Shown here piece after piece: positions 6,376 through 45,041 of a stretch of 64,000 nucleotides of DNA. A program made the translations under genes and the position numbers. Below the pieces are notes generated by a model. The model had not been told where the DNA came from. It saw only the letters and a list, made by a program, of their open reading frames with translations, and did not search any database. Position 1 is the first letter of the stretch. Each line of letters starts with the position of its first letter. This DNA comes from Microbispora sp. H11081 (GTDB lineage Bacteria; Actinomycetota; Actinomycetes; Streptosporangiales; Streptosporangiaceae): positions 496,001 through 560,000 of the forward strand of contig NZ_JABBWV010000002.1 in the NCBI RefSeq assembly GCF_012999535.1, in the 5' to 3' direction.

Positions 6376-8091
6376 ATGGCCGTGAACGAGATCGACGACG
6401 AAGCCGGATTCGCGGACCTGGCACTGGGCCCAGAGCTCCTGAAGGCCCTGTCCGGCCTGGGCTACGAGGAACCCACGCCGATCCAGCGTGAGGCGATCCC
6501 GCCGTTGCTGGAGGGCCGCGACCTGCTCGGCCAGGCCGCGACCGGCACGGGCAAGACGGCCGCGTTCGCCCTGCCCATGCTCCAGCGGCTGCACAGCGGC
6601 CACCCGCTGGGCGAGGAGGGCGGAAGCGTGGAGCCGGCCGGGCTCGTGCTCGTGCCGACCCGTGAGCTGGCCGTCCAGGTCTCGGAGGCCATGCACCGCT
6701 ACGGCCGCGACCTCGGCACGCGGGTGCTGCCCATCTACGGCGGCCAGCCGATCGGGCGGCAGTTGCGGGCGCTGGAGCGCGGCGTGGACGTCGTCGTCGC
6801 CACGCCTGGACGGGCGCTCGACCACATCGGCAGGGGCACCCTGCCACTGAAGAGCCTGCGGATGGTCGTCCTCGACGAGGCCGACGAGATGCTCGACATG
6901 GGCTTCGCCGACGACATCGAGGCGATCCTCCAGGACACCCCCGAGCAGCGGCAGACCGTGCTGTTCTCCGCCACCATGCCGCCGCGCATCGACGGGATCG
7001 CCCGCCGCCACCTGCGCGAGCCGGTGCGGATCAGGATCGAGCGGGAGGCGCCCGCCGCCGGCGAGGCGCCGCTCATCCGGCAGAGCGCCTACATCGTCTC
7101 CCGGGCCTACAAGCCGGCGGCGCTGGGCCGGGTGCTCGACGTGGAGGCCCCCACCGCGGCGATCGTGTTCTGCCGCACCCGCGAGGAGGTCGACCAGCTC
7201 ACCGAGACCATGAACGGCCGGGGCTACCGCGCCGAGGCCCTGCACGGCGGCATGGGGCAGGAGCAGCGCGACCGGGTCATGAGCAGGCTGCGCAGCGGGA
7301 CCGCCGACCTGCTCGTCGCGACCGACGTGGCCGCCCGCGGCCTCGACATCGAGCAGCTCACCCACGTCATCAACTACGACGTGCCGTCCGCCCCGGAGTC
7401 GTACGTCCACCGCATCGGCCGGGTGGGCCGGGCCGGACGCGAGGGCGTCGCGATCACGCTCGCCGAGCCGCGCGAGCACCGGATGCTCAAGACCATCGAG
7501 CGCGTCACCCGCAGCAGGATCGCGGTCGAGAAGGTGCCGACGGTCGCCGACCTGCGCGCCCGGCGGCTGGAGCTGACCCGCGCCGCGCTGCAGGAGAGCC
7601 TGATGGAGGACGGCGACCTCGACCGCTTCCGCGTGGTGGTGGAGACGCTGGCCGACGAGTTCGACCTGGTCGCCATCGCGCTCGCGGCGGTCAAGCTCGC
7701 GCACGAGTCCACCGGCGCCGCCGCCGACGAGGAGGAGATCCCCGAGATCGCGCCGCGCGCCCAGCGGCCCGAGCGCGGGCCGCGCGACGACAGGCAGGGC
7801 CGCGACGACCGGCGCGGGCGGCGCGCCGGCGGCCCGATGAGCCGCGTCTTCGTCGGCGCGGGCCGCACCGCCGGCGTGCGCCCCCAGGACATCGTCGGCG
7901 CGATCACCGGGGAGACCCGGGTCAGCGGGCGGGAGATCGGGGCGATCGAGATCGCCGACCGGTTCACCCTGGTCGAGATCCCCGACGGGGCCGTGGACGA
8001 GGTGGTCGCGGCGCTGCGCCGCACCACCATCAAGGGCAAGAGGCCGATCGTGCGGAGGGACCGCGACGACGCCCCGCGCGGCCGTCGCTGA
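6376..8091 (+). CDS. DEAD-box ATP-dependent RNA helicase
   Basis: ATP-dependent RNA-unwinding protein, 571 residues, of the DeaD/CsdA group involved in ribosome assembly and mRNA turnover, often in the cold. Seen in order: Q motif PTPIQ (about 35-39), Walker A ATGTGKT (55-61), PTRELA, TPGR, DEAD (167-170), SAT, ATDVAARGLD and HRIGRVGRAGR (about 350-360). A charged linker rich in Arg/Asp (about 455-490) leads to a C-terminal DbpA/CsdA-type RNA-binding domain (RVFVGAGRTAGVRPQDIVGAI onward) and a basic tail. All catalytic motifs are intact. The last AGGAG copy of the leader repeat sets the start. Monocistronic. Confidence 0.95.
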   Translation: MAVNEIDDEAGFADLALGPELLKALSGLGYEEPTPIQREAIPPLLEGRDLLGQAATGTGKTAAFALPMLQRLHSGHPLGEEGGSVEPAGLVLVPTRELAVQVSEAMHRYGRDLGTRVLPIYGGQPIGRQLRALERGVDVVVATPGRALDHIGRGTLPLKSLRMVVLDEADEMLDMGFADDIEAILQDTPEQRQTVLFSATMPPRIDGIARRHLREPVRIRIEREAPAAGEAPLIRQSAYIVSRAYKPAALGRVLDVEAPTAAIVFCRTREEVDQLTETMNGRGYRAEALHGGMGQEQRDRVMSRLRSGTADLLVATDVAARGLDIEQLTHVINYDVPSAPESYVHRIGRVGRAGREGVAITLAEPREHRMLKTIERVTRSRIAVEKVPTVADLRARRLELTRAALQESLMEDGDLDRFRVVVETLADEFDLVAIALAAVKLAHESTGAAADEEEIPEIAPRAQRPERGPRDDRQGRDDRRGRRAGGPMSRVFVGAGRTAGVRPQDIVGAITGETRVSGREIGAIEIADRFTLVEIPDGAVDEVVAALRRTTIKGKRPIVRRDRDDAPRGRR

Positions 8092-41344: not shown

Positions 41345-41677
41345 TCACAAGAGTCCCTTGTCCTCTTCGAGGCGAGGTTCCGGCGCGATGTGACGAGGTT
41401 CACGCGGGGTCTCGTCCTCCGCCAGGAGACCGGCCAGGTGGGCGGCGATGGCGTCGATCGTGGGATGGTCCCAGGCCAGGGTCGGCTCGACCAGGAGGCC
41501 GACGGCCTCTTCCACGTCGACGCACAGGCTGAGCGCGTGGACCGAGTCCAGCCCGTACGCCCGGAGCTTGACCGCCGGGTCGATCTCCGCGGCCGGCAGC
41601 CCGAGATAGCCGGACACCCGCTCGACGAGCCAGTGCCGCAGGGCGTCGTGGGTCCACAAACCGGGGGCGGCGCTCAT
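41345..41677 (-). CDS. Acyl carrier protein of FAAL operon
   Basis: 110 residues; the carrier domain covers about 10-85 with the phosphopantetheine Ser45 in GLDSVHAL. The tail (about 86-110, EDETPREPRHIAPEPRLEEDKGLL) is charged and probably disordered. The start overlaps the stop of the ligase gene (ATGA), so the two products are made in step; the ligase would load a fatty acyl chain on this carrier. Confidence 0.92.
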   Translation of the reverse strand: MSAAPGLWTHDALRHWLVERVSGYLGLPAAEIDPAVKLRAYGLDSVHALSLCVDVEEAVGLLVEPTLAWDHPTIDAIAAHLAGLLAEDETPREPRHIAPEPRLEEDKGLL

Positions 41678-43347
41678 GCGACGGTCTCGGGCAGGCCGCG
41701 CAGCGCGGGCGCCAGTTCGGCGTGCAGCGGGGTGAGGCCTCCGCCGAGGAACAGCTCGCGCATGTGGCGGCGGCGAAGCTTGCCGCTCGTGGTCTGCCGC
41801 ACCGTGCCCCGGGTCACCAGGAGCAGGCTCAGCGGGACACCGAACTCCCGCGTCAGCCGGTCCATGACCCGGTCGGCCGTCTCGCCGAGTGTCGCCGGCT
41901 GGCGCATGCGCACCTCCTGCACCAGGACGACGTGCTCCCCGCCGTCCCCGCCGCGGACGCCGAAGGCGGCGCCGCGCCCCGCGCCGGGATTGGCCCGCGC
42001 GGCCGCCTCCTCCAGGTCCTGGGGGTAGAGGTTGCGGCCGTTGACCACGATCACGTCCTTGATCCGTCCCGTCACGTAGAGCTGGCCGTCGAGCAGGAAC
42101 CCCAGGTCGCCGGTGCGCAGCCAGCGGCCGTGCCGCGCCGAGCCGTCGGCGGGGAAGGTGGCGCGGGTCTCCGCCGGGCGGCCTCGATAGCCGAGGGCGA
42201 CGCTGGGGCCCGCCACCCAGATCTCCCCGATCTCGCCGTCGGGGACGGGGCCGAGGCCGTGCGGATCGACGATGCGCAGGTCGAGCCCGGAGGGCGGGCC
42301 GCACGCGACCAGGGGCGTCCCCCCGGGCGCGGGGACCGCCCGGTGCAGTTCCAGGGCGGCGGGGTCGAACTCGCGCACGGTCACGCCCTGGCCCTGCGGC
42401 ACGCAGGTGACCATCAGGGTGCACTCGGCTAGGCCGTAGCCGGGACACCAGGTGGCCGGGCGGAAGCCCGCGGGGGCGAACCGCCGCTCGAACTCGGCGA
42501 GTGTGCCCGCCCGGATCGGCTCGGCTCCGCTGATCGCCATGGTCAGCGTGGACAGGTCGAGGCCGGCGAGTTGTTCGTCGGTGATCCTGCGCGTGCACCA
42601 GGCGTACCCGAAGTCCGGGGACACGGTCCAGTCCGCGCCGTACCGGCTGATCAGCTCGAGCCAGCGCACCGGGCGCGCGACGAACGCCGCCGGTGACATG
42701 AACACGAGGTCGGCGCCCGCGTGGAGCGCCTGCAACTGGAGGCCGACCAGGCCCATGTCGTGGTAGTGAGGGAGCCACCCGGCCAGCCGCCGCACCGGCC
42801 TCTCCCGGGCCAGCAGGCGGAACAGCTCCAGGTTGTGCAGCAGGTTGCCGTGCGAGATCTCGACCCCGCGCGGGTCGCTCGTCGATCCCGAGGTGTACTG
42901 CAGGTAGGCGAGGGTGTCCGCGGTCATGGCCGGCGGGGTCCAGGCGTCCGGATCGGCGGTGCCGGGATCGGCCACGCGCGCCGACAGATCGGACAGCCCG
43001 GGCGCGTGCGCGGCATCGGTCAGGACCATCCGGGCCCCCGCGTCCCCCATCAGGGCCCGTACGCGGTTCGCGTGCGGCGCGCCCGTGTCCGGCAGGGGCG
43101 CGGGGATCGCGGGCACCCGGGCGTAGAGACAGCCGAGGAACGCGACGGTGAAGTCGAGCCCCGCCGGGTAGAGCAGCAGCACCGGCCGATCGGTCAGGCC
43201 GTGCCGGGCGAGCCACACGGCGGTGGCGCGCGCCCGCCTGTCCAGCTCGGGGAAGCCCAGCCGGACCGGGGTGCCGTCGTCCCGCAGGAAGACCAGCTCC
43301 CGGTCCTCACGGAGGCGGCTCCGCACGTGCGTGACGAAGTCGGTCAT
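41674..43347 (-). CDS. Fatty acyl-AMP ligase
   Basis: Adenylate-forming enzyme of the FAAL group, 557 residues, which makes acyl-AMP and passes the acyl chain to a carrier protein instead of CoA. Seen: LQYTSGSTSDPRGVEISH (P-loop), LPHYHDMGLVG, GYGLAECTLMV, RTGDLGFLLDGQLYVTGRIKD and the A10 Lys in TTSGKLRRR. LPHYHDMGL and the P-loop form match FAALs, not CoA ligases. Start: the ATG at 43347, overlapping the stop of the reductase gene. The partner ACP follows directly. Confidence 0.92.
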   Translation of the reverse strand: MTDFVTHVRSRLREDRELVFLRDDGTPVRLGFPELDRRARATAVWLARHGLTDRPVLLLYPAGLDFTVAFLGCLYARVPAIPAPLPDTGAPHANRVRALMGDAGARMVLTDAAHAPGLSDLSARVADPGTADPDAWTPPAMTADTLAYLQYTSGSTSDPRGVEISHGNLLHNLELFRLLARERPVRRLAGWLPHYHDMGLVGLQLQALHAGADLVFMSPAAFVARPVRWLELISRYGADWTVSPDFGYAWCTRRITDEQLAGLDLSTLTMAISGAEPIRAGTLAEFERRFAPAGFRPATWCPGYGLAECTLMVTCVPQGQGVTVREFDPAALELHRAVPAPGGTPLVACGPPSGLDLRIVDPHGLGPVPDGEIGEIWVAGPSVALGYRGRPAETRATFPADGSARHGRWLRTGDLGFLLDGQLYVTGRIKDVIVVNGRNLYPQDLEEAAARANPGAGRGAAFGVRGGDGGEHVVLVQEVRMRQPATLGETADRVMDRLTREFGVPLSLLLVTRGTVRQTTSGKLRRRHMRELFLGGGLTPLHAELAPALRGLPETVA

Positions 43348-44408
43348 GCGGGCAACCCCTCCTTGACATACCAGGAGACCAGCCGGTCGAGGACCTGGGG
43401 GGTGACCGCGGGCGGGGCCGTCGCCTCCCGCCACGCGAAGTCGTACCGATGCCTGAAGTAGGTCGCGGTGTACTTGGCCCGCATGTTGACCACCGCCTCG
43501 AAGCGGCTGAACGGCCTGTCGCGGATCTCCTCCGGCGTGGCGGCGACCAGCTCGATCGGCAGCCGGTCGTTGATCACGCCGAACAGGTCGCGCACCGGCA
43601 CGGTGGTTCCGTGCACCACGTGGGAGACCGGGCGCTCCGGGTCGGCGGCGGCGAGCGCGAGCAGCCGGGAGACCGTGGTGTCGACGGGGGTCAGATGGAG
43701 GCCGGAGCCCGGATGGCAGGGGATGCGGACCCGTTCCCCCGGCGTCCGCCGGGCGAAGAAGGCGATCACCCGGAGGAAGTCGTACAAGCCGTAGTCGGTC
43801 AGCGCCCGCCCGGTGCGGGAGTGCCCGACCATCACGCCCAGCCGGGCGACCAGGGCGGCGCCCTCGCGGACGGACCGCGACCGGGCCAGCGCGATCTCCG
43901 CCTCGCGTTTGGAGTATTCGTAGAAGTTGCGGAACCGGTCAGGGGGAGCGTGCGACGGCCAGTCCTCGGGAACGGGGCCCTCGCTTTCGAGCCCGCACTG
44001 GTAGGCCGTCCCGACGTGGATGTAGCGCGAGCCCGGCCGGGCGTGCCGTTCGTAGGCGGACAGTGCGTTCGCCGATCCCGTCACGTTCACGTTCAGGAGC
44101 TCCTCCTCGCGGCGTGGGAAGAAGGTGACGAGCGCGGCGACGTGCCAGTAGACGCACGGCTCGGCGAAGACCTCGGCGACAGGGAGGCCGAGGTCGGGCC
44201 GGTCGAGCGCGAGCCCGCGCACGCGCAGGCGGCCCGCCGGGGACTCGCGGAGGCCGAGGCAGCTCAGCGCGTCCGCGACCCGGCGGCGCACCACGTCGGC
44301 GGACGCGCGGGCGAGGGCGATCACCTCGTCTCCCCGGGCCAGCAGAGCGGCGATGAGATGGGAGGCCACGAAGCCGTTGGCCCCGTCGATCACATGGACG
44401 CGCACCAC
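43344..44408 (-). CDS. Thioester-reductase-like SDR
   Basis: Extended SDR of 354 residues resembling the reductase domains that release acyl chains from carrier proteins (male-sterility/NAD_binding_4 type). Cofactor motif GANGFVASHLIAALLARG (9-26), a Ser/Thr in IHVGTAYQ and YEYSKREAE (Tyr-x3-Lys). Short for this family and without its own carrier domain. First gene of the operon, GGAAGG before the GTG start at 44408 (alternative GTG at 44405). The likely chemistry is reduction or modification of the acyl-ACP made by the downstream genes; a sugar epimerase is less likely given the neighbours. Confidence 0.75.
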   Translation of the reverse strand: MVRVHVIDGANGFVASHLIAALLARGDEVIALARASADVVRRRVADALSCLGLRESPAGRLRVRGLALDRPDLGLPVAEVFAEPCVYWHVAALVTFFPRREEELLNVNVTGSANALSAYERHARPGSRYIHVGTAYQCGLESEGPVPEDWPSHAPPDRFRNFYEYSKREAEIALARSRSVREGAALVARLGVMVGHSRTGRALTDYGLYDFLRVIAFFARRTPGERVRIPCHPGSGLHLTPVDTTVSRLLALAAADPERPVSHVVHGTTVPVRDLFGVINDRLPIELVAATPEEIRDRPFSRFEAVVNMRAKYTATYFRHRYDFAWREATAPPAVTPQVLDRLVSWYVKEGLPA

Positions 44409-44440
44409 GACACCTTCCCATGAGTGCTAGCGGAAGGTAA

Positions 44441-44463
44441 AGTCACGATCGCTCACAGTGACT
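44441..44463. promoter_or_regulatory. Inverted repeat in divergent FAAL/EF-hand region
   Basis: AGTCAC and GTGACT, separated by 11 bp, in the 69-bp region between two divergent starts; a possible operator. Confidence 0.35.
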
Positions 44464-44477
44464 AAGCGGGAGGGTGC

Positions 44478-45041
44478 ATGCTCAACGACCTGCAGCAGCG
44501 CAAGCTGGCCCATCTGTTCACGCTCCTCGACGTGGACGACGACGGGACCGTCGACAAGATGGACTACGCCGCCTCGGCCGACCGGCTGGTGAACGCGTTC
44601 GGGTTCGCGCCGGGCTCCGAGGAGTCGCGGCGGGTCAGGGACCGGTACGCGAGACTGTGGGACGAGGTGACCCTGCCCATGGACGCGGACGGGGACGAGC
44701 GGGTCGGGCTGCAGGAGTTCACGGCCGGATTCGGCCGGTTCGTCACGCAGCCCGAGGCGGGCTACCGGACCCACATCGCGCCGGTCGCCGACGCCTTCTA
44801 CGACCTCATGGACACCGACGGAGACGGCAGGATCACCCGGGTCGAGTACCTGCGGATGGCCGGGAGCGCGTTCCGCATGTCGGAGGCGAACGCCGTCGTC
44901 GCGTTCGACCATCTCGACCTGGACGGCAACGGCTCGTTGAGCCGGGAGGAGCTGCACCTGGCCAACGAGCAGTTCTTCCGCAGCCCGGACGCGCGATGTC
45001 ACGGCAACTGGCTGTTCGGCCCGCTCCCGGCACAGGGCTGA
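44478..45041 (+). CDS. Calerythrin-like EF-hand calcium-binding protein
   Basis: 187 residues with four EF-hand loops: D18-D29 (ends in Asp rather than Glu at position 12), D69-E80 (with Asp73 then Glu in the Gly position, weak), D112-E123 and D147-E158 (canonical). The arrangement resembles actinobacterial calerythrin / sarcoplasmic calcium-binding-like proteins, which act as Ca2+ buffers or sensors. No signal peptide. GGGAGG lies 4-5 bases before the ATG. Divergent from the FAAL operon with only 69 bp between starts, so control may be shared. Confidence 0.9.
   Translation: MLNDLQQRKLAHLFTLLDVDDDGTVDKMDYAASADRLVNAFGFAPGSEESRRVRDRYARLWDEVTLPMDADGDERVGLQEFTAGFGRFVTQPEAGYRTHIAPVADAFYDLMDTDGDGRITRVEYLRMAGSAFRMSEANAVVAFDHLDLDGNGSLSREELHLANEQFFRSPDARCHGNWLFGPLPAQG

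Follow-up and report, generated by a model that had tools for sequence, protein, structure and literature searches.

What could a fatty acyl-AMP ligase (FAAL), an acyl carrier protein (ACP) and an SDR make together when they are encoded side by side with no assembly line around them, and do these three genes represent the whole unit? The question is raised by a locus of Microbispora sp. H11081 situated in the 64-kb stretch of DNA analysed here (hereafter, the window). The answer we favor, with a probability of about 0.6, is that a self-contained cassette of four genes encodes a split carboxylic acid reductase accompanied by a calcium-binding EF-hand partner, with the chemistry predicted rather than observed.

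Layout of the Locus

The preliminary description of this DNA listed three coupled genes with ATGA overlaps, and all of them were recovered on the minus strand at essentially the same positions. A fourth gene, divergent from the trio, had been missed. The features are as follows:

43344–44408, minus strand: SDR, probably of the thioester-reductase type (354 aa, GTG start), with a GANGFVA cofactor loop, the triad T134/Y163/K167 and a GHSRTG stretch
41674–43347, minus strand: FAAL (557 aa), ATGA overlap of its start with the SDR stop
41345–41677, minus strand: stand-alone ACP (110 aa) with a GLDSV motif, Ser45 codon at 41545–41543, ATGA overlap with the FAAL stop
44409–44477, strandless: divergent spacer (69 bp) with a conserved ACTTTAC-like core, a probable two-way promoter region
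44478–45041, plus strand: EF-hand protein of the sarcoplasmic calcium-binding/calexcitin type (187 aa), with four canonical-looking loops, divergent from the trio

On the minus strand, the genes are ordered SDR, FAAL, ACP and joined by four-base ATGA overlaps; the EF-hand gene is read in the opposite direction, 69 bp from the SDR start. The domain families were recognised with scores of 191 bits (AMP-binding, FAAL), 49 bits (PP-binding, ACP) and 74 bits (NAD_binding_4, SDR).

The surroundings were correctly described as devoid of NRPS, PKS and desaturase genes: condensation-domain, ketosynthase and PF00487 desaturase matches occur in the genome, but none of them lies inside the window. The host does possess NRPS and PKS genes elsewhere, the closest condensation domain being located ca. 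70 kb away.

A Unit of Four Genes

Eleven complete cassettes were available for comparison: nine loci from the search of genome contigs, one more Microbispora locus (L089) and the window itself. All four genes occur together in every one of them, with all frames intact. Thus, the conservation of the SDR–FAAL–ACP set was confirmed (11/11), but the three-gene operon of the preliminary description proved to be too small: the trio stands, and the unit is redefined from three genes to four. The SDR/FAAL overlap is kept in all 11 loci and the FAAL/ACP overlap in seven, while in four Microtetraspora loci the earliest possible ACP start falls 0–30 nt past the FAAL stop. Ten short loci (L002–L011) contain the SDR, the EF-hand gene and a partial FAAL and end ahead of the ACP position; most of them seem to be duplicates of the loci from the named genomes.

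In nine genomes of three genera, frames and gene order are kept at 79–90% protein identity of the SDR and FAAL. The dN/dS ratio in the five loci compared was 0.25–0.36 for SDR and FAAL and 0.24–0.41 across SDR, FAAL and the EF-hand protein. Conservation of this kind, along with these dN/dS values, indicates that the arrangement is not a product of chance.

The cassette resides in five settings: the TrmH/GDPD junction in Microbispora, one that M. fusca and M. malaysiensis have in common, and a separate one for each of M. glauca, M. niveoalba and Sinosporangium. Apart from a distant transporter match (43%), the comparison of these settings revealed nothing but the cassette in common, and the fetched, partly annotated flanks of the other settings showed no recognisable NRPS or PKS. 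In carriers from the other genera, the cassette sits away from the TrmH–GDPD site; the native pair was intact and empty in all five such carriers examined, with 63–139 bp between the two matches. Since the four genes remain together across five settings with little else in common, the unit is these four genes. The gene set, its protein families and catalytic residues, the conservation of the unit and the difference of its sites are all read from the sequences themselves.

An ordinary lipopeptide start module was also considered for this locus and rejected: the window has no NRPS/PKS match, and none was recognised in the partly annotated flanks.

The Ligase and Its Carrier Protein

The identification of the ligase as a fatty acyl-AMP ligase held up: it is supported as being of the FAAL type, nearer to FAALs than to CoA ligases. 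Of its 15 best PDB matches, six are named as AMP ligases (FadD23, FadD28, FadD32, Fatty Acyl-Adenylate Ligase), and the other nine, recorded under different names, are presumably FAALs as well. The top match scored 358 bits vs. 61 bits for the CoA ligase FadD13, so the identity of a CoA ligase was rejected; transfer to CoA alone was one of the outcomes that the preliminary description had named against its reading. The distance from the YG[LM]AE to the GEIW motif is 65 residues in all ten FAAL orthologues vs. 43 in each of five NRPS adenylation domains. The longer stretch is as expected for the FAAL-specific insertion, judging from its length alone; rejection of CoA does not depend on this insertion exclusively (PMC8460268).

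The carrier protein reported beside the ligase was likewise found, with a PP-binding domain and a phosphopantetheine serine kept in 11/11 loci. Among NCBIfam models, it scores best against the N-terminal carrier domain of Pks13, a domain loaded by a FAAL. Elsewhere in the host genome, the phosphopantetheinyl transferase family is matched four times, so the ACP can be armed. In other respects, the ACP is less uniform: the Asp preceding the serine is replaced by Glu in 4/11 loci (ESI instead of DSI/DSV), the final ca. 20 residues lack conservation, and dN/dS amounts to 0.27–0.71, above that of the other cassette genes. The ESI motif belongs to the ACP genes at about 10.7–11.1 kb of loci L035, L036, L038 and L039.

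The SDR: Thioester Reductase or Epimerase Relative?

The preliminary description assigned the SDR to the chain-release reductases. By profile, it resembles thioester reductases more than epimerases: NAD_binding_4 scores above Epimerase (74 vs. 49 bits), and the control epimerase L103 displays the reverse (52 vs. 183 bits). The top NCBIfam model is the thioester reductase TIGR01746, which matches all ten orthologues. When the profile built from ten orthologues was compared with the PDB, its first five matches (MxaA, Nrp reductase, AusA twice, and an NRPS) were all reductase domains. T134, Y163 and K167 are invariant in 10/10 orthologues. Thus, the profiles bear the assignment out, but the curated cut-off does not: the SDR scores 67 bits to TIGR01746, far under the required 213 bits.

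Grouping of the SDR with sugar epimerases, named in the preliminary description as an outcome speaking against its reading, was not seen in the profile search: no sugar epimerase was present among the PDB matches at E <= 0.01. In a tree of 28 rows, the SDR forms a long branch of its own, placed with epimerases at weak support (73/48). The predicted structure model of the SDR is of low quality (pLDDT 41.9).

A different role of this enzyme should be considered, namely that of an alcohol/keto SDR of epimerase-like descent modifying the ACP-bound chain, with FAAL and ACP acting as stated and the chain released by some other enzyme. Both the score below the thioester-reductase cut-off and the tree placement would suit such a role. 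Still, we deem it unlikely: the order of the two Pfam scores, reversed in the control epimerase, and the PDB matches point the other way, and the cassette lacks any other release enzyme. Furthermore, the [GAS][HDS]SxT stretch (GHSRTG in this SDR) recurs in 11 of the set's 23 other distinct SDRs, the three epimerase-type rows among these 23 all lacking it.

The host genome encodes a second reductase-like SDR (L104, C10:94000-108000), which scores 87 bits to NAD_binding_4 and is situated ca. 0.7 kb from a ketosynthase.

The EF-Hand Protein and the Shared Spacer

The product of the divergent gene is a putative calcium binder of the sarcoplasmic/calexcitin type. A profile search aligned it with juvenile hormone diol kinase, a Streptomyces calcium-binding protein, calerythrin and calexcitin, in each case covering most of the matched protein, and most of the loop ligand positions are invariant in ten orthologues. 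According to the structure model (pLDDT 83.7), which superposes on 7pjd with a TM-score of 0.88–0.90, the protein is a full-length compact four-EF-hand fold; coelenterazine-binding protein is also among the fold matches. The XopAW identity was dismissed, as the NCBIfam score of 55 bits (cut-off, 120 bits) is far too low and is taken to reflect a general EF-hand likeness.

The spacer between the EF-hand and SDR genes measures 68–75 bp in 12 loci and retains an ACTTTAC-like core, so it is a probable two-way promoter region. An orthologous EF-hand gene (>400 bits) was detected, among 296 genomes of the class, only in the carriers of the cassette, the next match scoring 135 bits. A chance neighborhood was rejected on the grounds that this gene travels with the trio into every setting and has a strong orthologue in carriers alone.

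Relatives of the EF-hand protein are found in other actinobacteria; 12 regions around such relatives were fetched, the neighbors being inspected in seven. They adjoin a molybdopterin oxidoreductase in four of these (L096, L097, L098 and L100; around 7.0–8.2 kb); one lies beside an acyltransferase/ketosynthase set, one beside a histidine-specific methyltransferase and one near a short-chain dehydrogenase. Their position next to various enzymes suggests that EF-hand proteins of this sort are enzyme companions, perhaps a general family of them. The same observation can be turned around: if the relatives adjoin unrelated enzymes, the association may be loose, and the protein could be a separate calcium buffer merely sharing a promoter region with a trio that is itself a split reductase. 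We regard this as somewhat unlikely given the confinement of the strong orthologue to carriers and its presence with the trio in every setting.

Relatives of the FAAL–ACP Pair

The 20 best-scoring FAAL places outside the carriers were retrieved with 15–18 kb of sequence each. An ACP match was present in 19 of these stretches (one of them weak) and acyl-CoA dehydrogenases in seven; all 20 lacked both an SDR like that of the cassette and an EF-hand gene. In the top group (L113–L118), NRPS adenylation frames lie beside the FAAL–ACP pair in 5/6 loci. The ACP next to nearly all relatives and the NRPS next to the top group suggest that the pair stems from a common stock of lipid-loading modules, and, within this sample of 20, only the cassette joins such a pair to the SDR and the EF-hand gene.

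The closest FAAL (60%) and ACP (60%) seen outside the carriers belong to the FAAL–acyl-CoA dehydrogenase–ACP set of S. cattleyicolor pSCAT (L110 10425-16033, where the plasmid collection lists no genes), which differs in having a dehydrogenase in place of the SDR and no EF-hand gene near. In a plasmid of M. intracellulare (L112 5544-11917), the gene adjoining an ACP encodes an SDR from the same broad family; an adenylation protein and a chlorinating enzyme are encoded close by.

The NRPS neighbors of the top group, together with the NRPS and PKS genes elsewhere in the host, bring up another scenario, in which FAAL–ACP primes a distant NRPS/PKS in trans, in the manner of its closest relatives in lipopeptide clusters, with the SDR and EF-hand genes only incidental to it. 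It seems very unlikely: incidental genes are hard to reconcile with four genes staying together in five settings, with flanks (partly annotated) where no NRPS/PKS was recognised, or with the lack of such an SDR or EF-hand gene around the 20 nearest FAALs.

Distribution, Loss and Probable Movement

Of 249 genomes from the order, 12 have orthologues above 750 bits; three further matches are distant (52–78 bits). In the class sample, strong matches were found in 3/394 genomes, all of them Microbispora. After searching 14 other genomes of the genus, the carriers number 7/15. In seven of the eight Microbispora non-carriers, TrmH and GDPD are 72–320 bp apart; in one, another reading frame intervenes, namely an unrelated one of 817 aa at the junction (L087 4326-6779).

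At the TrmH–GDPD junction of the genome G238 (L086, about 7735–8055), remnants persist from the end of the EF-hand gene, the start of the SDR gene and the end of the ACP gene. This deletion scar shows that the cassette has been lost at least once. A weaker scar, comprising the ACP end alone, was found in the non-carrier G155. The presence of carriers and non-carriers inside one genus, one of the latter with a deletion scar, constitutes a natural experiment.

The genera g35, g32 and g40, which stand closer to Microbispora by the identity of the flanking transporter (75–83%), have no strong SDR match, while the carriers from other genera are more distant (65–73%). Within Microbispora, the cassette is mostly more diverged than its neighbors (SDR dN 0.058–0.069 vs. 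0.017–0.062); between genera, its dN is equal or lower (0.08–0.14 vs. 0.10–0.27). The site differences, the patchiness and the rate comparison suggest that the cassette was probably exchanged horizontally; ancient presence followed by loss and rearrangement is a possible alternative. A tblastn search of the plasmid collection with the SDR returned one record at 24% identity, so no vehicle was found there.

Proposed Function

In the proposed pathway, every chemical step is inferred, as are the substrate, cofactor, product, expression and the role of the EF-hand protein. The FAAL would use ATP to convert a free fatty acid into acyl-AMP and load the acyl group onto the ACP, at the phosphopantetheine arm carried by Ser45. 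The SDR would then reduce the acyl-ACP thioester with NAD(P)H to an aldehyde, possibly further to an alcohol. Taken together, the trio would function as a carboxylic acid reductase does, with the activities divided among three proteins. The EF-hand protein would be the trio's own calcium-binding partner, with the shared 69-bp spacer driving its expression; at a guess, it may control the enzymes in response to calcium or serve to hold the hydrophobic product.

The earlier functional interpretation, i.e., loading of a fatty acid on the ACP and its reduction, is partly supported. Points against the split-reductase reading are the SDR score (67 of 213 bits), the 73/48 tree, the ESI motif in 4/11 ACPs and the ACP dN/dS of 0.27–0.71. 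A bolder version of it depicts the cassette as a mobile, calcium-controlled fatty-aldehyde factory off any assembly line, where the EF-hand protein switches the enzymes or binds and releases the product, much as coelenterazine-binding protein takes up and releases its hydrophobic ligand on calcium; this extension is speculative and rather improbable. Should the EF-hand protein be a calcium sensor, a calcium-to-lipid link would become directly testable with four small genes.

Comparison with Known Systems

Carboxylic acid reductases are single adenylation–carrier–reductase proteins. Their three functions, and the sequence in which these act, match those proposed for the cassette, but they reside on one polypeptide, whereas the cassette has three separate genes, with a FAAL as the adenylating enzyme, and may work like one. 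If so, it would represent a three-protein alternative to carboxylic acid reductases, yielding fatty aldehydes without CoA. On the EF-hand side, sarcoplasmic calcium-binding proteins, calexcitin, juvenile hormone diol kinase and calerythrin share the full-length four-EF-hand fold; they are ca. 27% identical to the cassette protein, which is tied to a fatty-acid operon.

In the portions of PMC11837247 considered, JamA/JamB and other stand-alone FAAL–ACP pairs feature a FAAL beside its own ACP, as in the cassette, but feed PKS/NRPS or desaturase steps, unlike the cassette. According to a term search, the main text of this 2025 FAAL review (PMC11837247) contains no words that start with reductase, aldehyde or EF-hand. 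Full-text searches, with most subscription journals outside their scope, retrieved neither a pairing of FAAL with EF-hand nor a report joining FAAL, thioester reductase, ACP and fatty aldehyde; FAAL and thioester reductase occurred together in six papers. Overall, similar chemistry is known from tambjamine biosynthesis; the FAAL–ACP–SDR combination with an EF-hand protein was not found in the literature searched.

In the passages of PMC9594044 available, TamA/TamH from the tambjamine YP1 pathway of Pseudoalteromonas tunicata likewise proceeds from an adenylating domain via ACP loading to reduction of acyl-ACP to a fatty aldehyde: a C12 acid was converted into C12-ACP and then into the aldehyde in vitro, and the TamH reductase used acyl-ACP but not acyl-CoA. 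At the same time, TamA is an adenylation–ACP fusion, unlike the separate FAAL and ACP of the cassette, and the TamH reductase, fused to a transaminase and resembling cyanobacterial acyl-ACP reductases, is of another type than the SDR. The tambjamine genes are part of a 19-gene operon (PMC5939613, in part), and the passages of PMC9594044 and PMC5939613 mention no EF-hand gene for this system, unlike the cassette. Thus, TamA/TamH is the nearest tested precedent for the split-reductase chemistry, yet with another type of reductase.
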